A stretch of DNA of 64,000 nt from Chitinophagales bacterium (lineage in GTDB: Bacteria; Bacteroidota; Bacteroidia; Chitinophagales; Saprospiraceae). Shown here piece after piece: positions 12,718 through 49,830 of the stretch (the first letter of the stretch is position 1; each line of letters opens with the position of its first letter). Under the pieces are notes generated by a model, which worked only from the letters and a program-made list of their open reading frames with translations, did no database searches and was not told where the DNA came from. The DNA lies in the NCBI GenBank assembly GCA_013298845.1, contig JAAFJN010000023.1:1-64000 (forward strand), given 5' to 3'. The position numbers and the translations under genes are program-made.

Positions 12718-12733
12718 TAAATATATTGTACCA

Positions 12734-12741
12734 TATCTTTG
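12734..12741 (+). promoter_or_regulatory. -7 box of the nagB-fusion operon
   Basis: TATCTTTG matches TAnnTTTG, 50 nt before the ATG at 12792. No TTTG -33 element is visible at the right spacing; the palindrome at 12702-12717 occupies that region. Confidence 0.5.
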
Positions 12742-12791
12742 TCCCGATTGGCAAGGTAAACAAACAAAATCGCCTCTTTGCCAAATATAAT

Positions 12792-34363: not shown

Positions 34364-36793
34364 TTATTTTTTTACAAATCGGGAAGAACCTACCAAGGCA
34401 CCATCTATGCGCAAAGCCATGAAGTATAGACCGGAACGCAAACCAGCCAACTCAATGGTTTCATTTACGGCGCCGTAAACCGTACCCAAGTGGTTAGTTT
34501 GCACCAATTTACCCATTGCATCCATCAATTCCACGGTAACATCACCACTGCGGATCGTTTCAAACCGGAGGTGCAACGCTGCGTTCGCCGGATTGGGGAA
34601 AATAGACATAGAAGCCAACTGCGCCGGATCGGTAACACCCGAAAGAGGGCTGCCAAAGGAGATATAATCTATATCAATCGTGCCGTTGTACAAACCCGTT
34701 CCAGGATTGATAATGGCCTGGATCTTGGCCAAACGCTCGCCATCAACGAGGCAGCCCGATGTCGTACACGGAGAGCCTCCGTAAGCACCATCCAGGTAAG
34801 CACCCGTGAAATCAAGTTCATAAACAGCATAATCGGTCGTTAAGGTTGCCGTTCTGGCGTTCAGGTTGGTGACGTATTCAAGGTTATCCTGAACGTCGAG
34901 GCGCAAAACGGTACCGGCTACACTGGCACGTGCCCGAACGTACATTTTGTTATTACTACCCACGAGGTCACCTAAGATGATATTTCCGCTGTCATCATGC
35001 AAGGTGTAGATAGAAGATGCGTACGCCCCAACCGTACCGTCGCCCGTCAATGTCCAAATGCCATTGTTGACGGTCGAAACTACACCAGCAGCACTGGTAA
35101 TGTAACTGGAAGCAATATCGGGCATTTCATCCTTATAATTGATCAATCCGGTTGGACCGAGATCCGGGCCGGCGGGTTGACCAATGGAAATAAAGTCAAT
35201 CGTCACCTTGCCCGTATACGCTCCTACTACCGGGTCGAGGTACAATAACATCTGCCGGATTGCTTTCGGATCTACCGGGCACGGACCAGTAACGCACGGA
35301 GCACCGTTGTAACCACCATCGGTAAAATTACCCGAGAAGTCGTACGTAAATACCTGATAATCAGTGCTCAATACCCTGGTAAGCGCGGGTAATGAAGTGA
35401 TATAGTTCGCGGTGTCGATCAAATCAATGCGCAATGGCACGGTGCCACTTTCGGTTTTTGCCCGGATATAAACTTTGTTTTGGGCATCGGTTAAATCCAG
35501 TACTATTGGCTGTCCGGTGCTACGGTCATTTAAGATGTAGGAAACACTGGAGTAAGGTGTGGCACTGCCATCGCCCTCAATAACCATTTCGGTACCGGCT
35601 TCGGTAACAGTAAAGCCCTGCGTGGTGGTGGTGTAATCCAGTTGATCGTTATCAAAATGGTCTTCGTACACTTTTACGGCTTCCGGACCAGCGGGTTCCA
35701 GTGATTTGCCAAAAGAAATGTAATCAATTGTGAGGTCACCAAGGAACAGGCCGGAACCGGGGTTAATGAAAAAAACCAGGTTTTTGATACGGGTAGCATC
35801 CACGGGGCAAGGGGCCGTCAATTGGGTGCAGGGCGATCCGCCGTAGCCCAAATCAGCAAATGCACCGGAATAATCGTATTCATAAACGGCCCATTCCGTT
35901 CCAACTACTTTGGTAATGGAGCCTTGTGTGGTCAGGTAACTATCAATATCCTGCAAATCAACGCGGAATGAAGTGTTGGCCACACTTGATTTCATTTTCA
36001 CAAACAGTTTGCCGTTACCGGGGAGCACATCAATATCAATTGGCTCCAAAGTCACCGGGTTGCGAATATCGTAAGCAAAAGCATCGTAAGGGCCGGGTGA
36101 ACCATCACCCGTGATGACCAACTGCGAATTGGCCGATTGTACCTGAATGTTATAACCCGGAGGATACACCCCAAAGGCATTAATTGAACTATCCTGGGTG
36201 AAGTGATCTTGGAAAATATCGGATGTGATGCCGCCGCCGGGGCTTTCACCAAATGAAATATAGTCAATCACCACCGATCCGCTAAATCCACCCTGTCCCG
36301 GGTTAACGTAAAATTGCAAATTGGCCACTTTTGAACCGTCTACGGGGCATGGGCCGGCCGAACAGGGTGTGCCACCATAGCCTCCGTCGGTATAATTGCC
36401 CGTGAAATCGTATTCCAGAATAAGGTAGTCGTTGGTCAGGGTTTTGGTGATACCCGCCAAAGAAGTGAGGTAACCGGCTTCGTCCTGCACATCGAGGCGA
36501 AGTTGAGTGCCCACCGAACTGGCTTTTGCCCGCACAAAAATTTTGTTATTGCCCGTTGCATCCACTGTTTTTAGGGCAGTACCATCGTTCATTTTATAGG
36601 TAAAGATGTCATAGGGGCCAGTGTTGGTACAATTCACCGTCAGTTCGCCATTGGCCAAAGACGTACTGTACGAAGCGGCTCCGGCCTGAACAAAACTGGC
36701 CGGCGTTGCGCTAAAATCATCCAAATAAACTTGGGAAAAGCCTTGCTGCAAGATGCACAAAGCAAAGACAATAAATGTAATAAATTTTTTCAT
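34364..36793 (-). CDS. T9SS-exported protein with four ~180-residue Cys-containing repeats
   Basis: An 809-residue protein started at ATG 36793 (MKKFITFIVFALCILQQGFSQ signal). Four tandem repeats lie at about 22-192, 193-374, 375-550 and 551-726. Each contains a V/I-Y/F-x-D-x-F opening, a K-x-F/Y-V-R/K strand, an L-R-x-D-L/V-x-D strand, Y-G-G-x-P-C followed by C-x-V-D (two cysteines 4-6 residues apart), and an I-D-Y-I-S-F-G end. Residues about 727-809 are a T9SS sorting domain (SIFPNPANAALHL). The repeats look like beta-sandwich glycan-binding modules, but I recognise no named family. Its place between the IPT lipoprotein gene and the GH10 gene suggests a surface xylan-binding or capture protein. 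Confidence 0.82.
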   Translation of the reverse strand: MKKFITFIVFALCILQQGFSQVYLDDFSATPASFVQAGAASYSTSLANGELTVNCTNTGPYDIFTYKMNDGTALKTVDATGNNKIFVRAKASSVGTQLRLDVQDEAGYLTSLAGITKTLTNDYLILEYDFTGNYTDGGYGGTPCSAGPCPVDGSKVANLQFYVNPGQGGFSGSVVIDYISFGESPGGGITSDIFQDHFTQDSSINAFGVYPPGYNIQVQSANSQLVITGDGSPGPYDAFAYDIRNPVTLEPIDIDVLPGNGKLFVKMKSSVANTSFRVDLQDIDSYLTTQGSITKVVGTEWAVYEYDYSGAFADLGYGGSPCTQLTAPCPVDATRIKNLVFFINPGSGLFLGDLTIDYISFGKSLEPAGPEAVKVYEDHFDNDQLDYTTTTQGFTVTEAGTEMVIEGDGSATPYSSVSYILNDRSTGQPIVLDLTDAQNKVYIRAKTESGTVPLRIDLIDTANYITSLPALTRVLSTDYQVFTYDFSGNFTDGGYNGAPCVTGPCPVDPKAIRQMLLYLDPVVGAYTGKVTIDFISIGQPAGPDLGPTGLINYKDEMPDIASSYITSAAGVVSTVNNGIWTLTGDGTVGAYASSIYTLHDDSGNIILGDLVGSNNKMYVRARASVAGTVLRLDVQDNLEYVTNLNARTATLTTDYAVYELDFTGAYLDGAYGGSPCTTSGCLVDGERLAKIQAIINPGTGLYNGTIDIDYISFGSPLSGVTDPAQLASMSIFPNPANAALHLRFETIRSGDVTVELMDAMGKLVQTNHLGTVYGAVNETIELAGLRSGLYFMALRIDGALVGSSRFVKK

Positions 36794-36830
36794 GGATAGT
36801 TTAATATTTGTTTTATGCATTAATTTTTTT

Positions 36831-37937
36831 TTAAAATATTTCAACAAATCGAATATTATCAACATTGACCTCGAGCAATTGATTCGATTTTGTTTCGTCG
36901 TAAAGGTGAATTTTAAGTACTTTAATTTTGGCCGGATCTACTTGTACGTCATTGAGGTCGGTAAAGCGGCTGAGCGGAATGGAAAGCGTATTCCAACCGC
37001 TTTGATTAATCGGCAATTTGTAAGTAAAGTCGTTGGGAGACCCGCCATTTTCGAGCAAAATCAGGATGACATGAGTTTTGTCTTTCCCGTTATTGTTCAC
37101 TTCCATCTCCAGCAGGGTATTGTTCAGCGTCGAAGTAATCCCAAAATCGGTAAATGTATCGCCGGGAAACCCAAAGTTGTTTTGTGCCCCGCCAATCCAT
37201 TGGATATTCAGGTCGTCTTTTCCGCTGAGTTTGAGGAAACTTTGGGAATACGGAGCCGGGTTGCTGTTTTGTACCGCATTTTGGGCGTTTTGATTAACAC
37301 TGCCGACAAATACCCAACGGTTGGTTTCTTTCCGCAGTCCATTTCCATCAAAATCACTGACTAAGATCACGTTGCGGGTAAAAAAGTCCTTCGGCGAAAT
37401 GGTATCCTGGCCATCTGACACCAAGGTAATCGGGCCTTTTTCGGCCCCCACGGGTACTTCTACCCACACGATGGAATCGGGTTCGTGGCGAATGATATTG
37501 GCTTGGATACTATCAAAGAAAAAGACTTGAAGCGGCTCGAAAAAATTAACCCCCGTAATTTTTACCGTATCGCCGGGTGCCGCAAATTCAGGTTCCACCT
37601 TGAATATCTGCGGCGCTTCCAGGGTGACGCGGAACTGGGTCTGTATGGATCCGCCCGGCGTCGTTATTACTACGTCATGCAGGCCGGTGGGTATCTCTTG
37701 GGTAATCCTGAACAGGATGGCTACATCGGAGTTATAGGCCGTATTGAAGTTGATGGGCTTACCGCTAAAGGTGATACTTTCAACATTGGCCAGGTTCTCC
37801 CCTTTTACGGTGACCAGGGTCCCTTCCGCGCCCACTTGAGGATCAATACTCAGCAATACCGGTTCGCCGATCTTGCGACAACCCATAAAAGTTGCAATGG
37901 CCAACAGACCTATACATAAAATTGGATGAATACGCAT
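36831..37937 (-). CDS. IPT/TIG-domain surface glycan-binding lipoprotein (SGBP-like)
   Basis: A 368-residue lipoprotein (signal to TFMG, lipidated Cys20). Two IPT/TIG immunoglobulin-like domains follow: about 27-108 (LLSIDPQVGAEGTLVTVKGENL) and about 109-190 (QIFKVEPEFAAPGDTVKITG). The C-terminal 175 residues (ILVSDFDGNG to DNIRFVEIF) form a beta-sandwich that in relatives binds the polysaccharide. The position right after susD and the domain order match surface glycan-binding proteins of xylan loci. It should sit on the outer face of the outer membrane and hand xylan chains to SusCD. It is 23 bp after susD and 37 bp before the four-repeat gene. Confidence 0.88.
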   Translation of the reverse strand: MRIHPILCIGLLAIATFMGCRKIGEPVLLSIDPQVGAEGTLVTVKGENLANVESITFSGKPINFNTAYNSDVAILFRITQEIPTGLHDVVITTPGGSIQTQFRVTLEAPQIFKVEPEFAAPGDTVKITGVNFFEPLQVFFFDSIQANIIRHEPDSIVWVEVPVGAEKGPITLVSDGQDTISPKDFFTRNVILVSDFDGNGLRKETNRWVFVGSVNQNAQNAVQNSNPAPYSQSFLKLSGKDDLNIQWIGGAQNNFGFPGDTFTDFGITSTLNNTLLEMEVNNNGKDKTHVILILLENGGSPNDFTYKLPINQSGWNTLSIPLSRFTDLNDVQVDPAKIKVLKIHLYDETKSNQLLEVNVDNIRFVEIF

Positions 37938-37960: not shown

Positions 37961-39433
37961 TTAATAGCCCGGATTTTGTTCTAATTTTGAATTAATTTGG
38001 ATTTCGCCGACCGGGATTGGGAAAAGCAGGTGGTGATTTTGCGGATTTTTGCCGTGTAAAAGCAATATTTCGATGGCCTTGCCGGAGCGTATGATATCGA
38101 ACCAACGATGTCCCTCAAAGGCAAACTCCAAGCGACGTTCGTTAAGCATAATTTCTTTATCAATCGTTGTTAAGGCTTCCATACCGGCGCGCGTCCGCAC
38201 GCGGTTGAACGCCGCCAGCGCTGCCGCGTTGGAACTCACGCCGCCTTCGATTTCCATGATCGCCTCAGCGTAGGTCAGCAGCACGTCGGCATAACGCATC
38301 AGAGGAAAATTCTGGGGCGTACTCATGAAGCAGATATTGGCTCCCGCCCCGACCACAAACTTTTTGATATTCACTGCGGCGGCCGAAAGTCCGGCGGCCG
38401 GATAAACAAATCCACCATCATTGGCATTGATCGTAGGGTAACTCTGCCCCGCCGTCATCACCGTATGGTATTTGCGTTTGTCGGCTCCCTTGTAGGCATC
38501 TACAATGGTGGTACCGGGGTTATTGGTGGCCGGAGCAGTGGGAATTTGTGATCCCCAGCCGTCGCGGTCTTTGGTAATACCCGAACCCCAGGGGGCAAAA
38601 AATGCCTGCCTTGGATTGCCCGTACCAAATGGGCCACAACCGGCAAATTGCACTTCAAAAAGCGATTCGATATTATTGTCGCAAGTGGCCAATTCAAAAA
38701 GATCTCCGTATTCCGGCATTAAGTCATAAACCCCTGAGTCAATTACTCTTTTAGCCGCATCGCGCGCTTTAAGGAAGTCGCGGTTGGTGAGACTGACTTT
38801 GGCCAAATAACCATTGGCGGCACCTTGAGTGGCGCGGCCCACTTCCGATCCCGAACGGCGCAAAGGCAGATGCTCGGCGGCAAATTCAAGATCAGCAACA
38901 ATCATAGCGTACACTTCATTCACTTTGGAACGAGGATACAGCAAGTCGTCGCCGTACACGGGTGCTTTTGTAATGAGCGGTACGCCACCATAAACCCGCA
39001 CTAAGTCAAAATAAGCAATGGCACGCAGGAACCGCACTTCGGCCTGGAAGACGTTTTTTTGGGCTTGCGTCAAATCCATGACTTCGGTTTTTTCAATAAT
39101 GCTGTTACTCAACGTAATCTGGCGGTATCGAACGGCCCAATAGTTGCCAATCGGCAGGTTATCGGGGGTGACGGTAAAATTGTCAATTGGTGTAAAATCA
39201 GGATCAAGTCCACCCGCCTGCGAATTATCGGAGGGGATTTCGGTGATCATCCAGTCTTTTCCACTGTATTCAATATCCTGCATAACGGAGTAGCAACCAA
39301 TAATGGCGCGTTGTACATCCGCTTCAGTTTGGAAAAAAGAAGCCTCGGTAAGTTGATCGAGTGGCTCTTTTTTTAAAAAATCGCTGCATCCAGCCGAAAA
39401 GAGTAAAGCAACAAGTAACAAAATCTGCTTCAT
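37961..39433 (-). CDS. RagB/SusD-family outer-membrane lipoprotein
   Basis: A 490-residue SusD homologue. The start at ATG 39433 gives a lipoprotein signal with LFSAG before Cys16, then SDFLKKEPLDQLTEASFF, the standard opening. The SusD fold is marked by AEVRFLRAIAYFDLVRVYGGVPLIT, the helical pairs in the middle (NGYLAKVSLTNRDFLKARDAAKRVI) and the C-terminal ERRLEFAFEGHRWFDIIRSGKA and IPVGEIQINSKLEQNPGY. SusD forms the lid over the SusC barrel and captures oligosaccharides on the cell surface. The gene lies 22 bp after susC and belongs to the same operon. The longer frame from 39610 overlaps susC and is rejected. Confidence 0.96.
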   Translation of the reverse strand: MKQILLLVALLFSAGCSDFLKKEPLDQLTEASFFQTEADVQRAIIGCYSVMQDIEYSGKDWMITEIPSDNSQAGGLDPDFTPIDNFTVTPDNLPIGNYWAVRYRQITLSNSIIEKTEVMDLTQAQKNVFQAEVRFLRAIAYFDLVRVYGGVPLITKAPVYGDDLLYPRSKVNEVYAMIVADLEFAAEHLPLRRSGSEVGRATQGAANGYLAKVSLTNRDFLKARDAAKRVIDSGVYDLMPEYGDLFELATCDNNIESLFEVQFAGCGPFGTGNPRQAFFAPWGSGITKDRDGWGSQIPTAPATNNPGTTIVDAYKGADKRKYHTVMTAGQSYPTINANDGGFVYPAAGLSAAAVNIKKFVVGAGANICFMSTPQNFPLMRYADVLLTYAEAIMEIEGGVSSNAAALAAFNRVRTRAGMEALTTIDKEIMLNERRLEFAFEGHRWFDIIRSGKAIEILLLHGKNPQNHHLLFPIPVGEIQINSKLEQNPGY

Positions 39434-39455
39434 ATTTAGTGTTGTTTTTGTGTTG

Positions 39456-42400
39456 TTAAAAGGTAACATTGAGTCCAAACGTATAGGAACGCGCCATCGG
39501 ATAACGGCCGTTATCAACGCCATTGATGAGCGGGTTTTGGTTAAAAGAGCCAATTTCGGGGTCATAGCCGCTGTACTTTGTCCAAGTGTATAAATTTTGG
39601 GTACTGGCATACACGCGGAGGTTTTTTACTTTCAAGCGTTCCAGTTTAGTCCTCGGGAAATTATAACCTACCGTTATGTTGCGCAAGCGAACAAATGAAC
39701 CATCTTCAATGTAGCGGTCCGAAATACGACGGTTATTGTTGGGGTCACTGCCGTTGGCGCGGGGTATTTCGTTGCTGGGCCGCAAAGGCGTAAAACGATT
39801 TCTGACCGATTTTGCCTGGTTGGCCAGGCCCGACATGCCTTCCGTGTCGCGGCGCAACAAGTTCAGGATTTCATTACCAAACACACCTTGCACGAAAAAA
39901 CTCAGGTCAAACCCTTTATAATCGAGGTTATTAGTAACGTTGAGTGTAAAATCAGGCTGCGGATTACCGAGGAAAGTCTGGTCGGCATCGGTGATTTTGC
40001 CATCGCCGTTGAGATCTTTAAACTTGATATCGCCCGCCCGGGTACCCGATTCCTGACTGGGACTTTCGTCTACTTCGCCCTGGGTTTGGAAAATGCCTTC
40101 TACCACATAACCATAAAAATAGCCGATAGGCTGGCCGACCTCGGTGCGCGTTACCGGGATGCGCTGAATTTGGTTGATCAAACGACCAGTTGCCCCCAAA
40201 TCGAGGACAATGTTGCGGTTAATGGTATAATTTAACCCCGTACGCCAGCCAAAACGACCGTTTAAATTGACGGTGTTGAGCGTCAACTCAAGCCCCTTAT
40301 TTTCAATCGCACCAACATTGACGAAAGGTGGATTGAGCGAACCGGCGGTGCTGGGCAGCAAAGCAGGCAGCAACATACCATCTGATTGGCGTTGGTAAAC
40401 ATCGGCAACTATGCTCACGCGGTTTTTGAACAAATCGAGGTCGAGACCGATATTGGTTTGGGTACTTGCTTCCCAACGCACATCGGGGTTAGCAATATTA
40501 TCCGGCAAAAAACCAGTGTAAAGATCATTGCCAAATGCCACCGGAACCCCTCTGAAATTGGAAGTGTATGAATTCAGGCCAATTTCCTGGTTACCCACTA
40601 AACCCACCCCAACGCGAAATTTCAGGTTGTTCAGGGCTTTTATATTCTTCATAAAGCGTTCGCTTGACAAACGATACGCAATTGCCGTGGAGGGAAATAC
40701 GCCGTAGCGGTTGTTGGGCCCAAAACGAGAGGAACCGTCCATCCGCACCGTTGCCGTGACCTGCCAGCGGTCGGAGAATCCATAGTTCATGCGACTAAAA
40801 TAAGAGATCAGCGACCAGTGACCGGCGCCACCTCCATTTTGTTGCTGTCCGGCATCGCCGAGGGACAATTGCTGCAACGTGTTATTGGGCAGGTTCTCGC
40901 GGGATGCAAACAGAAATTCGTAGTTACCGGCTTGCGCTTCAAAACCGGCCAATACGTTTACATTGTGTTTTTCGGCAAATGTCTTGTCAAAAGTTAACAA
41001 GTGTTTATTGATCCAAAACAGCGAATTGTTCCAACTGCGGCGCACGCCCGAACGCCCGGAGAAATTACCGCGTTCAAAGGAAGGTAAAAATGTATTGTGG
41101 TTGGAAAAACCAATGTCAGTACCAAATTCAGTGCGGTATTTCAAAGATTTGAAAACATCGGCTTCGACGTAAAAATTAGCCAAGGCGCGGTGTTTGGTGT
41201 TGCGGTCATCGGTATCCAAAGCGCGCGCCACCGGGTTATCAAACGTAAGGGTAATCTCTTCGCTGGGTCCGGCAAACGTACCGTTGGAGTTGCGCACCGG
41301 CGAACTGGGCACCATCAGCAAAGCGGTATAAACGACACCGCTGGAGTTGTCGTTGAAGACAATCCGTTCGTTGGTACGGCTCAACAAAAAACTATTACCC
41401 GCCCGTATCCTTCGGCTGATATTGTGGTCAAGGTTTATTTTGGCCGAAAAACGTTTAAAATTTGAACCAACAACGATACCCGATTTATCGTTGTAACCCG
41501 CCGAAACAGCGTACTTGGTACGGTCATTCCCCCCTGACATGGTGACTTGGTAATTGCTCTGCGGCGCAGCGCGGAATACTTCATTTTGCCAATTGGTTCC
41601 TTCGCCCAACAGAGAAATGTCTTCAAATTCTTCAATTTGCTCAAACGCAACCTCGCCGTAATACTCGGCGTATTCGCGCAGGTTCATCACCGGGATTTGC
41701 CTTGAGATTTCCTGGGTGCCGATATAATATTCAAAACTCACATCCGACTGCCCTTTTGCGCCGCGTTTGGTGGTAATCATGACCACGCCGTTGGCACCAC
41801 GGGCGCCGTAAATGGCCGTTGCAGATGCGTCTTTTAATATTTCGATGTTTTCAATATCGTTCGGGTTAATGGTATTCAGGGCGTTTGAATATTGCCCCCC
41901 GCCGTCAATTTCCGATAAATTGGAGGAATTGCGCTGGTTGTCGTTCACCACCGGAATACCATCAATAACATACAACGGTTCGGCACTCAACGTAGAGGCA
42001 ATACCACGAATACGAATGGAAACGGCCCCGCCCGGCGCCCCGGAATTTTGGGTAACCAGCACCCCGGCCGCCCGGCCCTGCAAGGCTTGGTCCAGGCCAG
42101 TATTGGGCAATTGTTTAATTTCCTTGGCACTTACCGAAGACACCGCGCCCGTGAGGTCACTTCTCTTTTGGCTGCCATAACCAATCACAACGACTTCGTT
42201 GAGGCGATTGTCTTTCTCCATCAACAACAAGTCTCCGAGCGCGGCACTTTGCGCAATGATTTCAACATCATCGTAACCCGTGTAAGAAATCAAGAGGATC
42301 GCGCCCGGTGTCGCCTCAATTGAAAATTGGCCGTTGATATCCGTGGTAACACCGGTGGATTGACCTTTTACCACTACCGTAACCCCCACCAATGCCTCGC

Positions 42401-42566
42401 CCGTTTCGGCATCCAGTATACGTCCGGTAATGCGCATGGCTTCCGTTTCCCGTACAACGGCGTTCTTGTGAACAACCCGCCCTGAAATCGCCGGAAATGG
42501 TAAAAGCAGGTACATCGAGACGATTGCCAGATACCAGATAAATTTGTAATTTTTAACCTTTAACAT
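39456..42566 (-). CDS. RagA/SusC-family TonB-dependent oligosaccharide transporter
   Basis: A 1036-residue SusC homologue. Signal region to about residue 28, then a carboxypeptidase-regulatory-like domain (RITGRILDAETGEALVGVTVVV), a TonB-box-like segment (LNEVVVIGYGSQKRSDLTGA), the plug domain (RIRGIASTLSAEPLYVIDGIPV, and SATAIYGARGANGVVMITTKRG), and a long 22-strand barrel ending in YTFGLNVTF. It imports oligosaccharides, here probably xylo-oligosaccharides, using TonB energy together with the SusD lid encoded next. It begins 148 bp after the GH3 gene; no consensus -7 box is evident in that gap, so read-through from the GH3 promoter is possible. Confidence 0.97.
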   Translation of the reverse strand: MLKVKNYKFIWYLAIVSMYLLLPFPAISGRVVHKNAVVRETEAMRITGRILDAETGEALVGVTVVVKGQSTGVTTDINGQFSIEATPGAILLISYTGYDDVEIIAQSAALGDLLLMEKDNRLNEVVVIGYGSQKRSDLTGAVSSVSAKEIKQLPNTGLDQALQGRAAGVLVTQNSGAPGGAVSIRIRGIASTLSAEPLYVIDGIPVVNDNQRNSSNLSEIDGGGQYSNALNTINPNDIENIEILKDASATAIYGARGANGVVMITTKRGAKGQSDVSFEYYIGTQEISRQIPVMNLREYAEYYGEVAFEQIEEFEDISLLGEGTNWQNEVFRAAPQSNYQVTMSGGNDRTKYAVSAGYNDKSGIVVGSNFKRFSAKINLDHNISRRIRAGNSFLLSRTNERIVFNDNSSGVVYTALLMVPSSPVRNSNGTFAGPSEEITLTFDNPVARALDTDDRNTKHRALANFYVEADVFKSLKYRTEFGTDIGFSNHNTFLPSFERGNFSGRSGVRRSWNNSLFWINKHLLTFDKTFAEKHNVNVLAGFEAQAGNYEFLFASRENLPNNTLQQLSLGDAGQQQNGGGAGHWSLISYFSRMNYGFSDRWQVTATVRMDGSSRFGPNNRYGVFPSTAIAYRLSSERFMKNIKALNNLKFRVGVGLVGNQEIGLNSYTSNFRGVPVAFGNDLYTGFLPDNIANPDVRWEASTQTNIGLDLDLFKNRVSIVADVYQRQSDGMLLPALLPSTAGSLNPPFVNVGAIENKGLELTLNTVNLNGRFGWRTGLNYTINRNIVLDLGATGRLINQIQRIPVTRTEVGQPIGYFYGYVVEGIFQTQGEVDESPSQESGTRAGDIKFKDLNGDGKITDADQTFLGNPQPDFTLNVTNNLDYKGFDLSFFVQGVFGNEILNLLRRDTEGMSGLANQAKSVRNRFTPLRPSNEIPRANGSDPNNNRRISDRYIEDGSFVRLRNITVGYNFPRTKLERLKVKNLRVYASTQNLYTWTKYSGYDPEIGSFNQNPLINGVDNGRYPMARSYTFGLNVTF

Positions 42567-42714: not shown

Positions 42715-45102
42715 TTACTTCACCATCAGACTTGTTTTTTTTAAATCAATATCGCGGCTGGAACTCCCCGTCATGATCTCAAACTCTCCGGGTTCGACCA
42801 CCCAATTCATATTGTAGTCGAGCATCATTAACTTGTCCGGCGTGATCTGAAATACCACTTGTTGGGTTTCGCCGGGCTTGAGTTCTATTTTCGCAAAATC
42901 TTTTAATTCTTTAACGGGCCGGGTAACGGAGGCGTACACATCTCTGATATAGCATTGTACAACGGTTTTTCCCGGGCGCGTACCCGTATTTTTCACCGAA
43001 ACGGTTACCGTCGCGGTTTCATTTTTACCGATAGTGCTTCGCGTCAAAACGGGTTGCCCAAATTCAAATTTGGTATAACTCATCCCTTCACCAAACACAA
43101 ATAAAGGTGAAACGTCGTCGAAAATATAACCCCGGCGGGCCGAGGGTTTGTGGCTATAAAATACCGGTAAATGCCCCGCTGAACGAGGGAACGTAATCGG
43201 TAAACGACCACTGGGATTGTTGTCGCCAAAAAGGGTATTGGCGATGGCGTTACCACATTCCTGGCCCAGGTACCAACATTCAAAAATAACGGGTATTTTT
43301 TGGGCAATATTGGTAATGGAGTACGGGCGACCATTGAGTAACAGGCAGACCGTTGGCTTACCAAGGGCATGTATCGCGGAAACGAGACTGTCTTGCAAAC
43401 CTTTCAAGTTCATATCCGGCTGGTCACCGAGGTGGCTTTCCACCCATGCTTCCCGGCTTTCACATTCATTGCCCCCAACGGCAAGAATAACGATATCTGC
43501 TTGTTTTGCGATCTCCACTGCCTGCGCGATTTTCCGGCGATCGGTAGCCTTGTCGGTTAATTGTACGGGGTCTTTGTACCAGGAGCAAGGTTCCGTGATG
43601 CCGCAGCCTTCGGCGTACACGACCTTGGCGCGATTCCCTACTTTGGCTTCAATCCCCTTTCTAACGGTGACAAAATACGCGGGTTCATCGGAGTAACCGC
43701 CCAAAAGTGTTTTGTCGGCATTGGGTCCAATTACTGCGATGGTTTTGTATTTTGACAAATCCAGTGGCGCCAGATTTCCTTCATTTTTTAACAAAACAAT
43801 GGCTTCCTCGGCGGCTTTTAAGGCCATTGAGCGGCTGTTGTTATTTTGAAAAACCCGTTCTGCCACTTGTGGATCGGTGTACGGATTTTCAAAAAGTCCG
43901 AGGGCAAATTTTTGACGCAACACCCGCGCAACGGCAGAATCCAAAACGGCCATGGGCATTTCACCCGTTTCGAAGGCTGTTTTTAATAGGATAAAACATT
44001 CCGGGTCGGGCGTTTCGACATCTACCCCAACCGACATGGCTTTTTTGCCCGCCTCTTTCAAATCTTTTGCAACGCGGTGGCGGCGGTACAAATCAGAAAT
44101 GGCGTTATAATCGCTCACAACCGCACCTTTAAAACCCCATTCTTTCCTTAAAATTTCATCCAAAAGCCAACGGGAATTGTGCGACGGAACGCCATCAATT
44201 TCATTGTACGACGGCATCACATTCCAGGCATGTCCTTCCTGAATACATTTTTTAAAAGGTGGTAAAAATTGCTCGAGCACCAGGCGGTGTGGCACCGGAG
44301 CCGGAGCCACGTTATTACCCCCTTCGGGTTGGCCGTGGCCGGTCATGTGTTTGAGGGTGGCCATGACGTGTTCTCCGTCAATATTACCAGTTCGCCCCTG
44401 AAATCCCCGAACTGCGGCGAGACCAATTTCACCAGCGAGCCAAGGATCTTCGCCGTAGGTTTCTTCGGTTCTTCCCCAGCGTGGATCACGTGTTATATCC
44501 ACCACCGGCGCCAGTACAAGATGGTTGCCACAAGCACGGGCTTCTTTGGCCGCAATATCAAATGATGTTTCGATCAAAGCCGGATTCCAGGTAGAAGCCA
44601 AAGCAATCGCCTGCGGAAAAGCAGTTGCGCCCCGGCCAACGTAACCGTGCAACGCTTCTTCGTGCATGATGGCCGGGATACCCAGGCGGGTTTTTTCTTT
44701 GAGAAAACGTTGAATGGCGTTGGTGTATTCAATGGTTTCGAGGGTAGTACGGCTCGGAAAAGTACCTACTCCGCCCCGAGGCTCTTTGGGGCGGGTGATT
44801 TGGCCAATTCCGTGGGGCATATGTTTCATCGCCGAATCGGGGAGAAAATTACCGCGGCTGTCCATCATGCTGCGCGCAGCGTTCCAAAGGCAGTAGGTTT
44901 GGGCCATTTTCTCGTCCAGGGTCATCCGTCCCAACAAGTCGCGAACCCGGACCTCGTTTGGTAAAGCCGCATTTTTATACGGTGCATTGGTAAGGAGTGC
45001 GTCTCCTTTTACTACAGTGTTTGAAGTCTTTTGGGCCGCATTACAACCCAGTAGAAAAAAAAGGAAAAAGGGTAATACAATTCTACAATTTGGAATATTC
45101 AT
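42715..45102 (-). CDS. GH3 beta-xylosidase/beta-glucosidase lipoprotein
   Basis: A 795-residue glycoside hydrolase family 3 enzyme. The ATG at 45102 opens a lipoprotein signal (FFLLG before Cys20). Order of domains: N-terminal TIM barrel with RLGIPAIMHEEALHGY and the nucleophile Asp331 in KGAVVSDYNAI; the alpha/beta sandwich (TIAVIGPNADKTLLGGYSD, VILAVGGNECESREAW); and a C-terminal fibronectin III-like domain ending TSLMVK. The KHMTGHG motif stands for the usual KHF-type motif. In a xylan locus it most likely releases xylose from xylo-oligosaccharides in the periplasm or at the outer membrane. It is the first enzyme gene behind the promoter and direct repeat at 45183-45232, downstream of the kinase-HTH gene. 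Confidence 0.93.
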   Translation of the reverse strand: MNIPNCRIVLPFFLFFLLGCNAAQKTSNTVVKGDALLTNAPYKNAALPNEVRVRDLLGRMTLDEKMAQTYCLWNAARSMMDSRGNFLPDSAMKHMPHGIGQITRPKEPRGGVGTFPSRTTLETIEYTNAIQRFLKEKTRLGIPAIMHEEALHGYVGRGATAFPQAIALASTWNPALIETSFDIAAKEARACGNHLVLAPVVDITRDPRWGRTEETYGEDPWLAGEIGLAAVRGFQGRTGNIDGEHVMATLKHMTGHGQPEGGNNVAPAPVPHRLVLEQFLPPFKKCIQEGHAWNVMPSYNEIDGVPSHNSRWLLDEILRKEWGFKGAVVSDYNAISDLYRRHRVAKDLKEAGKKAMSVGVDVETPDPECFILLKTAFETGEMPMAVLDSAVARVLRQKFALGLFENPYTDPQVAERVFQNNNSRSMALKAAEEAIVLLKNEGNLAPLDLSKYKTIAVIGPNADKTLLGGYSDEPAYFVTVRKGIEAKVGNRAKVVYAEGCGITEPCSWYKDPVQLTDKATDRRKIAQAVEIAKQADIVILAVGGNECESREAWVESHLGDQPDMNLKGLQDSLVSAIHALGKPTVCLLLNGRPYSITNIAQKIPVIFECWYLGQECGNAIANTLFGDNNPSGRLPITFPRSAGHLPVFYSHKPSARRGYIFDDVSPLFVFGEGMSYTKFEFGQPVLTRSTIGKNETATVTVSVKNTGTRPGKTVVQCYIRDVYASVTRPVKELKDFAKIELKPGETQQVVFQITPDKLMMLDYNMNWVVEPGEFEIMTGSSSRDIDLKKTSLMVK

Positions 45103-45182
45103 ATACTGACATTGTTCGTTGAAAAAACAAACCATGCAAAGAAGATGATTTATCCCGTAATTGTTCTGAAAACCGGTTACGG

Positions 45183-45190
45183 CAAATATA
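45183..45190 (-). promoter_or_regulatory. -7 box of the GH3 gene
   Basis: TATATTTG on the minus strand matches TAnnTTTG, 81 nt before the GH3 start codon. At the normal -33 position no TTTG is found; an 11-bp direct repeat lies just upstream instead, as expected for an activator-dependent promoter. Confidence 0.5.
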
Positions 45191-45210
45191 CTTCTTCCTC
45201 CGAAAAAATA

Positions 45211-45232
45211 TACGTCAGTAGTACGTCAGTTG
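45211..45232. repeat. 11-bp direct repeat upstream of GH3, probable activator site
   Basis: TACGTCAGTAG and TACGTCAGTTG are adjacent and differ at one base. One repeat per helical turn puts both on the same DNA face. Relative to the predicted GH3 transcription start they occupy about -34 to -55, the usual activator position. The neighbouring gene encodes a protein with a LuxR-type DNA-binding domain. Confidence 0.6.
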
Positions 45233-45264: not shown

Positions 45265-47229
45265 CTACACTTTATTTAAAAAATCAATCATGTCGTTTTC
45301 TGTATTCATGGATAATTTGCGGCGCAGGCGATAGCGGCGCGTTTCAACGCCACGGACGGAAATATTGAAAAATGTAGCCAATTCCTTGCTGGAAAGGCGC
45401 AATTTGAGCATTTCACACAGTTTAAGGTCATCCAGGCTCAAACTCGGAAATAAGGAATGCAGGCGGGCAGTCCACGGGTTATGCAGTACCTGCGAACGGG
45501 CTTCAATCTGATTCCAAACGGCGTTTTGCTGTTCGCTTTCGGCAATGCGGCGGGTTATTTTTTGCAATTCCGCCTTGAGGCTTTTCGGATGTTCTACTTT
45601 TTGCAAACGCTCCAACTGCTGCTGAACCTGACTGAGCAACTCTTCTTTGGCCGATAGTTTTAAAGCCAGGGTGTGCAGTTGTCCGACATTTTCGGTGACT
45701 TTGCTCAGTGGCATTTCGGATGACTTTGCTTTTTTGCCCACTGGCCGCGACAGCACTCCTTCCAGTGAAGAACACCAATAACTGTAGGCTTGCAGGCATT
45801 GCCCCCGGTTAAATACAGACTCAAACACCTCAACCGGCTGAATGCCATCAAAGGCTTCTTCGAGGGTTTGGTAAGCACCAATCGAAAAACCAGCGGCCTT
45901 TGCCGCACCCGTCGCGCCGGTCGTATCCATCATTTCGATCTGCAAATCGAGCAACGTGGCAATGGTATTGCAAAACACCCGGGACTGAAACATATTGTCG
46001 TTACTCACCCTGAGTAAATCTACTTGCAGCCCCATTTCTTTCAAAATATTGATGCCATGCACCATCGAAAAAGCAACCCCTTCGATGGAAGCCCGGTACA
46101 AATGCGCCCGCGTGTGCCGATTGTATTGAAGGTTGAAAATATGCGCGTTGGGGTTTTGCCCGTTAAAAATACGCTCGGCCCCGTTACCAAAAGGCAGCAT
46201 CGTTAACCCATCAGCGCCAACCGGTACGGAGGTAGCCATACGTTCCATATCCTGGTACGAAATGCCGTCGCGGGCAATTTGGTTTTTTACCCAACCATGC
46301 CCAATACCCGCGCCATTGATACACAATAACGCCCCGATACGCGGGGTTTCGGGCGAGTGATTGACGTGTGCAAAAGCATTGATCCGCGTTTGTGCATCAA
46401 AAATGGGTTTGTCAAAAACGCCATAAACAACCCCCGAGGTACCACAAGTTGCGGCTATTTCGCCCGGTTGAATCACATTTAACGCCAGGGCATTGTTGGG
46501 TTGGTCGCCCGCGCGGTAGGCCACTTGCACCCCCGTGTGCAAACCGAGCATTTCGGCGGCTTTATGGGTTAAATAACCTTGGTTCGAAAAAACGGGTACG
46601 ATTTGGGGTAAAACATCTTCACCAATCCCGAAGTGATCGAGTATGGCACCCGATACTTTGTTTTCAATAAAATCCCAAAAAATACCTTCCGAAAGTCCGG
46701 TAACGGTCGTGCAAATTTGCCCGGTAAGCCGCATGGCTATGTAATCGCCCGGTAACATTATCTTATGGATGCGGCGATAAATTTCCGGCTCATTGTCTTT
46801 TACCCATTTTAACTTGGACGCCGTAAAATTCCCCGGAGAATTGAGGAGCGTTCGCAGGCAGTTCACTTCTCCCAATGCCTGAAATGCATCTTTGCCAATC
46901 TCGACTGCCCGGCTATCGCACCAAATGATGGCGGGGCGTAACACTTGCTGGTTTTCGTCCACCAATACCAGGCCATGCATCTGATAAGCGAGTCCGATGG
47001 CCTTAATATCGTTGGCCGAAATACCCGATTCGGAAATAATACGTCGCGTCAGGGTGCAAATATTTTGCCACCATATCTCCGGTGATTGTTCGGCCCAACC
47101 CGACTGCCGAGAAATCATTTCCATCTCCGTGTCCGGCCAACTCTGCACGGCCACCACTCTGCGGCTTTGAGCCTCCACAATAGCCGCTTTTATAAACGAA
47201 GAACCAATATCAAAACCTAGTAGATACAT
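45265..47229 (-). CDS. Xylulokinase (FGGY) fused to C-terminal coiled coil and LuxR-type HTH
   Basis: A 654-residue protein from ATG 47229. Residues 1-490 are a complete FGGY kinase of the xylulokinase type: LGFDIGSS phosphate loop, substrate motif QMHG (83-86), catalytic Asp242 in RAGDQPNNA, GTSGVVYG (263-270) and the adenosine motif SNDNMFQS. It would phosphorylate D-xylulose. Residues 508-593 form a helical/coiled-coil linker (LHTLALKLSAKEELLSQ), and 594-654 a LuxR-like helix-turn-helix (LSSKELATFFNISVRGVET). Linker and HTH together resemble the C-terminus of Bacteroidota triple-tyrosine/TPR regulators. Normal kinases end near residue 500, so this is a true extension in one uninterrupted frame. 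It lies between a two-component system and the GH3/sus genes. Confidence 0.92.
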   Translation of the reverse strand: MYLLGFDIGSSFIKAAIVEAQSRRVVAVQSWPDTEMEMISRQSGWAEQSPEIWWQNICTLTRRIISESGISANDIKAIGLAYQMHGLVLVDENQQVLRPAIIWCDSRAVEIGKDAFQALGEVNCLRTLLNSPGNFTASKLKWVKDNEPEIYRRIHKIMLPGDYIAMRLTGQICTTVTGLSEGIFWDFIENKVSGAILDHFGIGEDVLPQIVPVFSNQGYLTHKAAEMLGLHTGVQVAYRAGDQPNNALALNVIQPGEIAATCGTSGVVYGVFDKPIFDAQTRINAFAHVNHSPETPRIGALLCINGAGIGHGWVKNQIARDGISYQDMERMATSVPVGADGLTMLPFGNGAERIFNGQNPNAHIFNLQYNRHTRAHLYRASIEGVAFSMVHGINILKEMGLQVDLLRVSNDNMFQSRVFCNTIATLLDLQIEMMDTTGATGAAKAAGFSIGAYQTLEEAFDGIQPVEVFESVFNRGQCLQAYSYWCSSLEGVLSRPVGKKAKSSEMPLSKVTENVGQLHTLALKLSAKEELLSQVQQQLERLQKVEHPKSLKAELQKITRRIAESEQQNAVWNQIEARSQVLHNPWTARLHSLFPSLSLDDLKLCEMLKLRLSSKELATFFNISVRGVETRRYRLRRKLSMNTENDMIDFLNKV

Positions 47230-47230
47230 A

Positions 47231-47255
47231 TATGCTGGAAAGATACGCCAGCATA
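47231..47255. promoter_or_regulatory. Inverted repeat at the start of the kinase-HTH gene
   Basis: TATGCTGG (47231-47238) and CCAGCATA (47248-47255) form an 8-bp dyad with a 9-bp centre, ending 1 nt before the start codon. On the coding strand its centre contains TATCTTTC, one base off the -7 consensus. It could be an operator or an mRNA hairpin masking the start site. Confidence 0.4.
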
Positions 47256-47324: not shown

Positions 47325-48092
47325 CTACACCGCTACCCCATTTTTCCCCAACATCTCCATCGCGCTCGGGTGTCGGAGTTCGATGCAGATTTGCACCATA
47401 ATCCAAAATTTTTGCCGGATACTAAGGCCACCTTTGTCCATATCGCTGAAATTGGCAAAAAAGTGGTTGCGTTGCGAGTGTTCAATCAGTTTGTTCAAAA
47501 TACCATCAATGCGGCCGCTCAAATTGGAGTGGTTGCGCATCCCGTGTTTGGCCTGAATAAACTCGTCGGAGTGGCCGCGCAAAATATCTTCGAGGATGGA
47601 GAGTTGCAACTCGGTGAAATGCGCCCAAACACCCTGCTCTTGTTTGCGGGGTTTCCAGGGCGAAAACTTGTTAAAAAACGTGGTATCCGTGTCGCCGTAG
47701 GTAAACACCATCAGCGCATCGGGGAGGGCGCGTTGGTAATCGGCTTTGTCAATAAAACCCTGGATGTACGGAAAAGCCATAATAAACAGTTCCCGAATGG
47801 GCACGCCCGTCAAAATCACCACCCGAATAGCCTGCCATTCGGGATAACGGCGCAGTTCTTCCAGGGTTTCGCGCAATTCCTCAAAATTGTGGTCAATTTG
47901 TTTGGTATTAAACCGCGCATCCATAAAAATCACTTCGGGCAGGGCGCTGGCGTGGTTGTGCAGGTACGCAAATAAATCGCGGGTGGTGTCCACTTTGCCC
48001 AAAAACGAGCAGGGCGCCTGTTGAATGGCGCAAACAATGTGAACTTCGGGTTGGTCGTCGCAGAAAAGGACACGAATCGGTTGTTTATGCAT
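47325..48092 (-). CDS. Response regulator with REC domain and LuxR-like HTH
   Basis: A 255-residue response regulator started at ATG 48092. The receiver domain (about 5-130) has the acidic pocket CDDQP (Asp12, Asp13), the phosphorylated Asp58 in VIFMDARF, the Thr switch in VVILTG and the Lys in IDKADY. Residues about 160-215 (FTELQLSILEDILRGHSDEFIQAKHGM, then IDGILNKL) look like a divergent LuxR/NarL helix-turn-helix; the last 40 residues are unassigned. It overlaps the histidine kinase gene by 8 bp, so the two are translationally coupled partners. It lies just upstream of the kinase-HTH gene and may control the xylan locus. Confidence 0.85.
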   Translation of the reverse strand: MHKQPIRVLFCDDQPEVHIVCAIQQAPCSFLGKVDTTRDLFAYLHNHASALPEVIFMDARFNTKQIDHNFEELRETLEELRRYPEWQAIRVVILTGVPIRELFIMAFPYIQGFIDKADYQRALPDALMVFTYGDTDTTFFNKFSPWKPRKQEQGVWAHFTELQLSILEDILRGHSDEFIQAKHGMRNHSNLSGRIDGILNKLIEHSQRNHFFANFSDMDKGGLSIRQKFWIMVQICIELRHPSAMEMLGKNGVAV

Positions 48093-49830
48093 GTTTGAAG
48101 TGTAGTTGAAGTGATTTAAAACCTTGTTCGCCGGGGCGAATACCCACGAGGCGACCACCAATTTTTTCCAGTTCCCATTGCACAATGCGCAGCCCGTTGC
48201 CGTTGGAGCCTTCCATCAGCGCTTCGATGCTGTCGTGCGGCGGGAAAGGTACCCCGTTATCGCTGATTTCCGTTAACACATAATCGCCCTCCACCCGGGC
48301 CGAAATACGGATTTTGTTCACCTCCGGGCGGTGTCCGGCCTCCCGAATGGCCTGAATGGCGTTAAAAATGGCGTTGTGAAAAATCAATTCGATGCTGTTG
48401 AGGGTACCCACAATTTCGATACCGGGAATGTCCATTTCGAACTGAATTTTGAGCGGAACGGCCAGCGATTCAAACCAGTGCACAATCCCGTCGAGGCCCA
48501 ATTCGAGGTCGTAATGAATCAAATCATTCACCGAACTGCTCGTGAGTGCGCCCCGGTTATTTTCGTAAAACAGCAGGGCTTTCTCCAACGTGTGGTTGTT
48601 GTTTTTTAAAATATCCATCACCCGCTCGGTGTCGCCAATGGGAATTTCACCCAAAATAATGCGCGCATTGAGTTCTTTTACCTCCTGAATCAGGTTTTTG
48701 AGCGAATGTAATTCACCGTCGTACATGTTGCGCAGGGTGGAAACATCGGTATCTACCACGATGAGCGATTGGGTATTTTCGTCAAAAGTAATGCCGCTGT
48801 GCACGTTTTTATTGCCCAAAATCGCGTTGCAATATTCGGTTTTGCCGGGTTGAGCGATGACGTTTTCAATCACGCGGTCAATTTGCCCAAACCCCGATGC
48901 ATCGTGCAAGTTAATGCCCTCGGCCCCTTTGTTGTCGTTCCAATCTTTGTAGGTATCGTTCACGTATTCCAAATTCCCCTTTTTATCGGCAATGGCAATG
49001 GCGCAGGTGGCCTTGTTCAAACTCGATAACCACCGGTTGGCCGTGGCCGACAACCGAACATTGTAGCGGTACAAAAAAAACGTGATGGCCGTGGTAATGA
49101 GCAGCAGCCAACTAAAGCGCAAAAACCATTGAATCAATTGGTAAAGGCTTTGGGGAATGGCAATTTCGTTGTTGGAATTATCGTAAGTGGCATCGGGCAT
49201 GCGCGACGAAAGTTGGATCAGGTATTTGCCCGTGGTATCGGTGCCGATGAGCGAAATGCGTTGGTTAATGACCGCGTCGTTGATGCAGAGATTGGCGTTA
49301 AAAAAGGCCGGTTGGAACAGGTTGCCCGTGGTTTTTTGGTTGTTGCGCAACACTTCGAGGGCCGTTTGCAAAATTAAAATGTACCCCGTTTGGTTGTGGG
49401 TCAGCCCCAGCACTTCTTTTTTGTTGTTCACCACGTACATGGCGTCGTGCATGATTTCGCCACTTTTCATCGTGCGTTTTTCAATTTGTACGGCGTTGTA
49501 ATTGTAAATGTACGCGGAAGAATCGCGCTCTACCACGCGTTGCACAATGAGGGAATCTACGGAAAGGTAAAGGCTGTCTTTTTTGAGATTTTGTTGGCGA
49601 ACAATCAGTTCCTGGGCTTCTTGCGGGCTGATACTCAAGGATTTATCGCGCAGTACGTAATCATTCACCGCTTTTTGCCAAATGGGGTATTGGTCCAGCA
49701 GCAGTTTGCGGGTATCTAATTGTCGTTGGTGTTCCTGTTGCCGGATAATGTACAACCACACCCCAAACGCCGTGAGAATCAGCGTTGGTAACATTACTAA
49801 AAGCAGCACCCATTTTGATCTTACATTCAT
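48085..49830 (-). CDS. Membrane sensor histidine kinase with PAS domain
   Basis: A 581-residue sensor kinase. Transmembrane helix 1 is about 8-29 and helix 2 about 236-255, enclosing a 200-residue periplasmic sensor domain without a recognised family. A PAS-like domain follows (about 268-365: TCAIAIADKKGNLEYVNDTYKDW). The kinase ATPase domain runs from about 420 to the end, with an N-box-like ELIFHNAIFNAIQAI, G1 box EISDNGVPF and G2 box GNGLRIVQWELEK. No classic HisKA H-box is visible; His375 in ELHSLKNLIQEV is the best candidate for phosphorylation. It overlaps the response regulator gene by 8 bp. Probably senses an extracellular sugar or envelope signal for the adjacent locus. Confidence 0.88.
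   Translation of the reverse strand: MNVRSKWVLLLVMLPTLILTAFGVWLYIIRQQEHQRQLDTRKLLLDQYPIWQKAVNDYVLRDKSLSISPQEAQELIVRQQNLKKDSLYLSVDSLIVQRVVERDSSAYIYNYNAVQIEKRTMKSGEIMHDAMYVVNNKKEVLGLTHNQTGYILILQTALEVLRNNQKTTGNLFQPAFFNANLCINDAVINQRISLIGTDTTGKYLIQLSSRMPDATYDNSNNEIAIPQSLYQLIQWFLRFSWLLLITTAITFFLYRYNVRLSATANRWLSSLNKATCAIAIADKKGNLEYVNDTYKDWNDNKGAEGINLHDASGFGQIDRVIENVIAQPGKTEYCNAILGNKNVHSGITFDENTQSLIVVDTDVSTLRNMYDGELHSLKNLIQEVKELNARIILGEIPIGDTERVMDILKNNNHTLEKALLFYENNRGALTSSSVNDLIHYDLELGLDGIVHWFESLAVPLKIQFEMDIPGIEIVGTLNSIELIFHNAIFNAIQAIREAGHRPEVNKIRISARVEGDYVLTEISDNGVPFPPHDSIEALMEGSNGNGLRIVQWELEKIGGRLVGIRPGEQGFKSLQLHFKHA

Follow-up and report, generated by a model that had tools for sequence, protein, structure and literature searches.

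A xylulokinase joined to a NarL/LuxR-type DNA-binding domain, a likely xylulose sensor and regulator of xylose and xylan genes in Bacteroidota

The DNA analysed here (the window) is a stretch of 64,000 nucleotides, positions 1 to 64,000 of contig JAAFJN010000023.1 from the Chitinophagales bacterium assembly GCA_013298845.1 (Saprospiraceae). Its minus strand carries, from 47229 to 45265, a gene without internal stop whose translation of 654 residues combines an FGGY xylulokinase with a coiled coil and a helix-turn-helix (HTH) domain of the NarL/LuxR type. Ahead of the next gene, which encodes a glycoside hydrolase of family 3 (GH3), lies a tandem motif that we predict to be the operator of this fused protein: TGACGTA-N4-TGACGTA, a direct repeat with an 11-bp period. 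The fused gene and the candidate sites, scored with a position weight matrix made without the window's genome, are the following.

45265–47229, minus strand: gene of the fused protein, 654 residues; ATG start at 47229, stop at 45265
45754–47229, minus strand: FGGY xylulokinase domain, residues 1–492; D242 codon at 46504–46506; AT-C262-GTSG loop
45484–45708, minus strand: coiled-coil linker, approximately residues 508–582 (AlphaFold2 and homology), within the stretch common to Reg_prop/Y_Y_Y-LuxR regulators
45271–45477, minus strand: NarL/LuxR-type HTH, residues 585–653; recognition helix SVRGVETRRYRLRRKL
45211–45228, minus strand: predicted operator, no mismatches, 75 bp before the GH3 start; 24.8 bits, the best in the 64-kb window
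45178–45195, minus strand: second, weaker pair AGAAGTA-N4-TGCCGTA, 33 bp downstream, as at most targets; 16.8 bits, second best in the window
47233–47250, minus strand: weak remnant or half-site TGGCGTA with a poor partner, before the start codon of the fusion; 6.7 bits, tenth in the window and possibly due to chance

A preliminary description of the locus had proposed a single-frame fusion of a xylulokinase and a DNA-binding tail. Translation and domain profiles bear this out, with the coordinates correct and the strand, which had been left unstated, being minus. Pfam finds FGGY_N at residues 2–245 (E 7e-55) and FGGY_C at 259–448 (E 1e-11), and the best NCBIfam model is XylB TIGR01312 with 310 bits, under its curated cut-off of 380.25 bits, as is the tail-less relative in the same genome (303 bits). 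The top Foldseek matches of the kinase are the solved xylulose kinases 3ifr and 2itm. The GTSG loop and the catalytic Asp242 of the earlier reading are both confirmed: GTSG is present, and D242 aligns with the Asp of the GGGDN motif in Escherichia coli XylB, which we take to be Asp233, the catalytic base. The adenosine motif, which had been called intact, is there in a lineage-specific form (NDNMFQS, with NDNLFQS or near it in tail-less relatives) that we assume not to be the canonical FGGY one. An AlphaFold2 model built from 31 fused homologues (mean predicted local distance difference test score 83) has a low-confidence break between kinase and tail at residues 497–507, followed by long helices at 508–542, 548–567 and 569–582 and then by the helices of residues 585–653 with the HTH, so that the coiled coil and the LuxR-type HTH follow the kinase as had been suggested. 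GerE (PF00196) scores 13.6 bits on the window's own tail, under the gathering cut-off of 23.5; at E<=1 it picks up all 31 fused tails, the best of them at 3e-6. Against the PDB, a profile of the fused tails finds EsrB (2e-4) and SsrB (4e-4), with EvgA, EL222 and DevR at just 0.03–0.4. LuxR-type similarity is thus present in profile searches. In Foldseek the tail model finds FixJ, RcsB, StyR, EL222 and DosR first and NarL and GerE lower, with probability up to 1.00 and no match at E<=0.001. Only FGGY domains precede the tail in Pfam, neither a Reg_prop propeller nor Y_Y_Y, and a ROK domain is not matched at E<=1 anywhere in the fused protein, whose HTH is C-terminal. The fusion of kinase, coiled coil and HTH is real and conserved.

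Where does the tail come from? It matches the C-terminal ~165 residues of proteins, mostly of 950–1025 residues, found across the class. Of six tail-bearing proteins run against Pfam, four contain Reg_prop, Y_Y_Y and GerE domains (E<=0.01), one is a TPR protein and one a 7TM (seven-transmembrane) protein. The resemblance to triple-tyrosine (Y_Y_Y) regulators noted earlier is upheld by these profiles and by the tail tree; the TPR label fits less well, as among the relatives of the tail those found to be nearest are of the Reg_prop/Y_Y_Y type. The tail tree, built from 63 rows, groups all 29 fused tails into one clade (support 96/87) together with two rows labelled non-fused, namely the tail of the fusion of genome G107, cut by contig ends, and a stand-alone tail open reading frame (ORF) of 177 residues beside the fusion of G042 (genomes and loci are given by our handles, G and L). 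Since the fused tails form one clade, the tail was most likely acquired once, by a single kinase from a single regulator. On the kinase side, a quickly built tree with midpoint root compares 34 fused with 66 tail-less kinases. In it the cut G107 gene is labelled fused, and six ORFs with fewer than 350 aligned residues were dropped (G107b, G931, G065 twice, G877 and G375a). It places the fused kinases on one side of a single branch (Shimodaira–Hasegawa-like approximate likelihood ratio test 97), nested inside tail-less XylB. G188 and G669 fall inside this branch, which suggests transfer. A single origin of the fusion is supported by these trees. A membrane-like segment precedes the coiled coil in 49 of 62 long regulators (at least 800 residues) and in 0 of 31 fusions over the matching stretch. 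The stand-alone ORF of G042 (L052:8012–8545, minus strand) is a coiled coil with HTH that directly follows the fusion, has a two-mismatch operator upstream and, grouping with the fused tails, resembles a copy without kinase.

The operator shows up in the upstream regions as a tandem repeat. With at most one mismatch per half, direct TGACGTA pairs occur in 33 of 91 upstream regions (some of which overlap one another) at period 11, against 0–2 at the other periods from 7 to 25 and a mean of 0.03 in 100 dinucleotide shuffles. Inverted pairs occur in 0–2 of the 91 regions at spacings 7–25, and the operator is therefore a direct repeat. We searched the exact pattern TGRMGTANNNNTGRMGTA across 74 whole genomes, 37 with the fusion and 37 relatives lacking it. 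The fusion genomes hold 66 exact matches. On the strand of the fusion gene and no more than 400 bp away from it are 16 that directly precede and 20 that directly follow it, and 25 of the 37 genomes have at least one of these; of the remaining matches, four stand before a tail-less xylB, one in the same region and 25 elsewhere. The fusion-less relatives hold 20 matches, a background count, and the reversed control pattern gives 24 in the fusion and 15 in the fusion-less genomes. Versions with one or two mismatches stand in the expected place in G032, G042, G064, G407, G888 and G982. When up to one mismatch is allowed, the 102 kb surrounding tail-less xylB in fusion-less genomes (24 genomes, a single locus from each) contain one site, compared with 59 in the 645 kb of the fusion regions and 1–5 once these are shuffled. 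At the held-out loci of the two Fulvivirga strains and Reichenbachiella, exact sites lie 17, 21 and 131 bp before the fusion, and at both Fulvivirga loci arrays of pairs stand before the next gene, a tail-less xylB. The window's perfect operator falls inside the region 45183–45232 that had been singled out for a binding assay; being conserved, it strongly supports the regulatory role envisaged there for the adjacent xylan genes.

A further set of loci does not involve the kinase at all. Seventy-two non-kinase loci (L317–L396) were chosen solely by the tail motif ETxRYR. They encode long regulators in Bacteroides, Chitinophaga and others, and the four of their 72 proteins that were run against Pfam are of the Reg_prop/Y_Y_Y type. 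These loci contain 41 sites at period 11 in 39 of the 72, 40 of the sites beside the regulator gene, compared with 1–5 at other periods from 8 to 15 and 1–5 in shuffles; the next gene at the loci checked is a TonB receptor in two cases and a GH30 enzyme in one. Since the operator stands beside 39 of 72 regulators that share the tail motif, it probably belongs to the HTH, and from these co-occurrences it appears to track the recognition helix of the tail. Another 35 loci (130 kb), in which 21 of 26 readable helices are EI and two ET, contain no site; most of them hold 1.5 kb past the tail and lack the regulator start, which makes this a partial test. TGACGTA-N4-TGACGTA is likely to be the DNA code for a large class of regulators, the ET-type Reg_prop/Y_Y_Y-LuxR regulators of Bacteroidota, and perhaps tied to ET over EI in the recognition helix.

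Two types of predicted promoter can be told apart. The 17 sites at the fusion's own promoter each consist of a single pair, at a median of 14 bp upstream of the start codon and no more than 26 bp from it in 14 cases; none of the 17 has a second pair. At the next genes (31 target rows, with the G375 sites counted twice owing to two overlapping loci and paired sites entered as separate rows) a further half-site follows 32–34 or 43–45 bp on, about three or four helical turns, in 24 of 31 rows, or in 23 of 29 without the duplicated G375 locus. This second pair reads roughly nGGCGAA-N4-TGCAGTA, and the target sites lie 75–424 bp before the start. Boxes resembling TAnnTTTG, which we take to be the promoter consensus, overlap 11 of the 17 own sites and are nearby in seven of the 31 target rows. 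The single pair so close to the start codon suggests autorepression, while the mostly doubled sites, with pairs about 33 bp apart before xylA, xylB, SusC or GH3, suggest cooperative binding. We propose that, after a duplication, a xylulokinase of the Saprospirales type acquired, most likely in a single event, the cytoplasmic coiled coil and NarL/LuxR HTH of a membrane-bound Reg_prop/Y_Y_Y regulator, the cytoplasmic sugar kinase replacing the regulator's sensor. Judging from position, phasing and co-occurrence, the HTH would bind tandem TGACGTA half-sites 11 bp apart, repressing its own gene from the single site and exerting cooperative control, most likely activation, from the doubled target sites when the kinase domain holds xylulose and/or ATP. 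The gating by these ligands would act through the domain closure of FGGY kinases.

We consider it likely that this one protein serves as both xylulose sensor and transcription factor for xylose and xylan genes, probably still as an enzyme. The bolder version, to which we give about even chances, is that the active xylulokinase itself is the transcription factor of the xylose/xylan regulon, reading its substrate (and possibly the ATP/ADP state or flux) via its catalytic cycle and directly setting the expression of the polysaccharide locus as well as of the gene that encodes it; it would have arisen when a metabolic enzyme took the place of the sensor in a Y_Y_Y regulator whose DNA code was kept. 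The predicted operator makes the regulator claim directly testable. Several observations weigh against this picture. In the window itself the fusion's own promoter carries just the weak half-site; 12 of the 37 fusion genomes lack an exact site within 400 bp of the fusion; and eight have none anywhere, while G462 has just an unlinked one. The intergenic stretches examined in G462, G998 and G968 contain no site at up to two mismatches, and in fusion genomes (G669 included) just four of 16 non-adjacent tail-less xylB genes have a site. In G352, which lacks the fusion, a site with one mismatch immediately precedes the tail-less xylB (L080:2998); it may be due to a lost fusion or to chance. The motif was first spotted by eye upstream and then counted, so the upstream counts are partly circular; the held-out loci number only three; and two ET-type regulators are among the 35 loci without a site. 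The strict clade of the 29 fused tails is neither rejected nor shown (approximately unbiased test, p 0.094). Finally, residue 262 beside GTSG (codon at window 46444–46446) separates the two groups completely, with S or C in all 34 fused rows and G or A in all 66 tail-less ones, a split that could signal altered or lost activity.

The last point leads to the strongest competing explanation, a pure sensor: where a genome encodes a tail-less XylB as well, the fused protein would have lost useful kinase activity and would bind xylulose only in order to control DNA binding. We regard this as possible, though clearly less probable than a bifunctional protein. Beside the split at residue 262, it is favoured by a second close XylB match in 29 of the 37 fusion genomes, in several of them encoded next to the fusion, and by the precedent of the ROK repressors, which derive from kinases that gained a DNA-binding domain (PMC12696579). 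Against it, D7, K14, H85, D242, GTSG and N412 are invariant across all covering rows, fused and tail-less alike. These are positions that we take to be catalytic or phosphate-binding. The ratio of non-synonymous to synonymous substitution rates (dN/dS) for the pair G093/G870 is 0.048 in the kinase and 0.054 in the HTH (synonymous rates being saturated in most other pairs), which points to purifying selection on both parts. In eight of the 37 genomes (G110, G354, G407, G462, G888, G968, G982 and G998), moreover, the fusion is the sole close XylB match at E<=1e-25. It is the one and only PF00370 match in G407 (100% complete) and G462 (96%) and likewise the only FGGY protein found in the less complete G998 (86%), and G888 holds an additional FGGY fragment of 45 residues at a contig end. 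Six of these genomes (G407, G462, G888, G968, G982 and G998) form a subclade in which GH3 and xylA flank the fusion and it takes the place of xylB in the operon. The gene of an SSS symporter follows directly in G407, G462, G968 and G998, and its homologue stands beside SusC in G888 and G982. As the only close xylulokinase found there, in the operon's xylB slot, the fused protein should also phosphorylate xylulose, to which the linkage with xylA lends indirect support; otherwise the pathway would be broken. The fused protein thus probably remains an enzyme. In this subclade the fusion is inside the operon, and a one-mismatch site stands at the operon head before SusC in three of five genomes examined (G407, G888 and G982), with none in the 32 bases (G462) or 669 bases (G998) available before SusC. 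No separate motif is apparent by eye in its short intergenic gaps.

Another alternative keeps the enzyme active and lets it repress all its targets, the repressor being released by xylulose and the doubled sites not activated. The arrangement at the fusion's own promoter, with sites at most 26 bp from the start codon and overlapping promoter-like boxes, is typical of repression and speaks for it. Target sites are, however, mostly doubled and lie at a distance from the start codon, and NarL/LuxR-type proteins are mostly activators. SusR activates the starch operons (PMC3878776). On balance we hold repression throughout to be unlikely, slightly more so than the pure sensor, and prefer autorepression combined with activation of the targets. 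More doubtful by far is the notion that the tail is a mere oligomerisation or localisation module and that the TGACGTA sites belong to another regulator of the same xyl genes. Y_Y_Y regulators with a similar tail are indeed present in the window's genome, and the site before xylB in G352 exists without a fusion. Yet the sites cluster beside the fusion gene and drop to background in fusion-less relatives, they flank regulators that share the tail and not the kinase, and the HTH is under the purifying selection described above, with the recognition-helix residues of the fused tails invariant. An assembly or frameshift artefact joining two genes can be dismissed, as nothing was found in its favour apart from a broken copy in G065 and one cut by contig ends in G107, and stop-free copies recur in independent genomes with both parts under purifying selection.

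A stop-free match spanning the kinase end and the tail is present in 33 of 398 genomes of the window's family, two of them (G931 and G877) with the kinase part cut upstream by contig ends. The fusion of G065 (L174) is split into separate frames and adjoins a tail-less xylB-like gene. At the level of the order (396 genomes) the full-length fusions number 17, of which only that of G188 comes from another family. The searches of the class (395 genomes, E<=1e-38), with just G000 and G669, and of the phylum (395 genomes, E<=1e-44), with G000 alone, used limits that could miss remote fusions. A scan of named genome contigs with the whole protein as query gave no match. Among the best 80 of 420 matching loci in such contigs eight are FGGY fusions, and further ones may exist in named genomes. 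The named carriers include Flavilitoribacter nigricans DSM 23189 (Lewinellaceae, Saprospirales), Fulvivirga marina 29W222, Fulvivirga kasyanovii JCM 16186 and Reichenbachiella agariperforans DSM 26134; with cultured strains carrying the fusion, experiments are possible. Plasmids do not seem to carry it, as 897 of 72,556 records have a match, none spanning 80% of the protein in one place and none a full-length fusion. The spread is patchy: G000 and G1031 are the sole carriers among the sampled members of the window's genus. The tail has thus not been lost in all close relatives, a possibility raised in the preliminary description.

How does the fused protein compare with known systems? Tail-less XylB of Bacteroidota is the same FGGY kinase, with mostly 45–61% identity to that of the window among the matches of the family search and with the same active-site residues, but it lacks coiled coil and HTH and has G or A in place of S or C at position 262. 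The Reg_prop/Y_Y_Y-LuxR regulators share the coiled coil, the HTH and, at 39 of the 72 ET-helix loci, the tandem operator, but have their own Reg_prop/Y_Y_Y sensor and mostly a membrane-like segment. Members of the ROK family (NagC, Mlc and, as we assume, Bacillus XylR) also combine a sugar-kinase fold with a DNA-binding domain and sense the sugar of their pathway, but there a ROK kinase domain follows an N-terminal DNA-binding domain, in contrast to FGGY_N/FGGY_C with a C-terminal HTH. BirA, NadR and PutA are metabolic enzymes whose own DNA-binding domain controls their pathway, although their enzymes and DNA-binding domains are unrelated to those of the fusion and none of them is known to sense a pentose. 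To our knowledge such enzyme–regulator fusions are few, and they have been very instructive about the ways in which metabolism communicates with transcription. Such trigger enzymes unite catalysis with ligand-dependent DNA binding, and the sequence of the fused protein supports both. BirA is both ligase and repressor (PMC6391492). XylR of Bacteroides (BT0791) is likewise predicted to control xylose genes in Bacteroidota, but this regulator belongs to the NrtR family, with an operon xylRBAE, and is not a kinase fusion; for SusR-like regulators the predicted sites are direct repeats spaced by 67/77 bp (both from PMC3878776). In the accessible part of PMC12125979 the xylulokinase XylB and the regulators XylRA and XylRB are separate proteins, and neither there nor in that of PMC5507952 is there anything on the fusion. 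A full-text literature search, judged by titles and abstracts and with subscription journals mostly outside its reach, found no description of an FGGY kinase with a NarL/LuxR-type HTH.

In the window the fusion heads a series of genes on the minus strand: fusion, GH3, SusC, SusD, TIG protein, sorting-tail protein and a glycoside hydrolase of family 10 (GH10), at these positions.

42715–45135, minus strand: GH3 glycosidase, first gene after the fusion
39456–42566, minus strand: SusC-like TonB-dependent receptor
37961–39610, minus strand: SusD-like protein; start codon provisional, drawn here with an overlap into SusC
36831–37937, minus strand: TIG / surface glycan-binding protein
34364–36865, minus strand: protein with a secretion-system C-terminal sorting tail
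32202–34358, minus strand: GH10 xylanase

Similar neighbours recur among the 37 fusion genomes, with xylA in 20, SusC in 15, SusD in 14, GH3 in 14, an SSS symporter in 10 and GH10 in eight, counts for which some fetched regions were short and gene clusters were named from representatives. Directly upstream of the fusion (47325–49830, minus strand) lie genes for a histidine-kinase-like ATPase protein of 581 residues and for a protein of 255 residues without Pfam match. Elsewhere in the window, an ORF of 661 residues (12726–14711, plus strand) looks by eye like glucosamine-6-phosphate deaminase joined to a PIG-L/LmbE-like deacetylase half.

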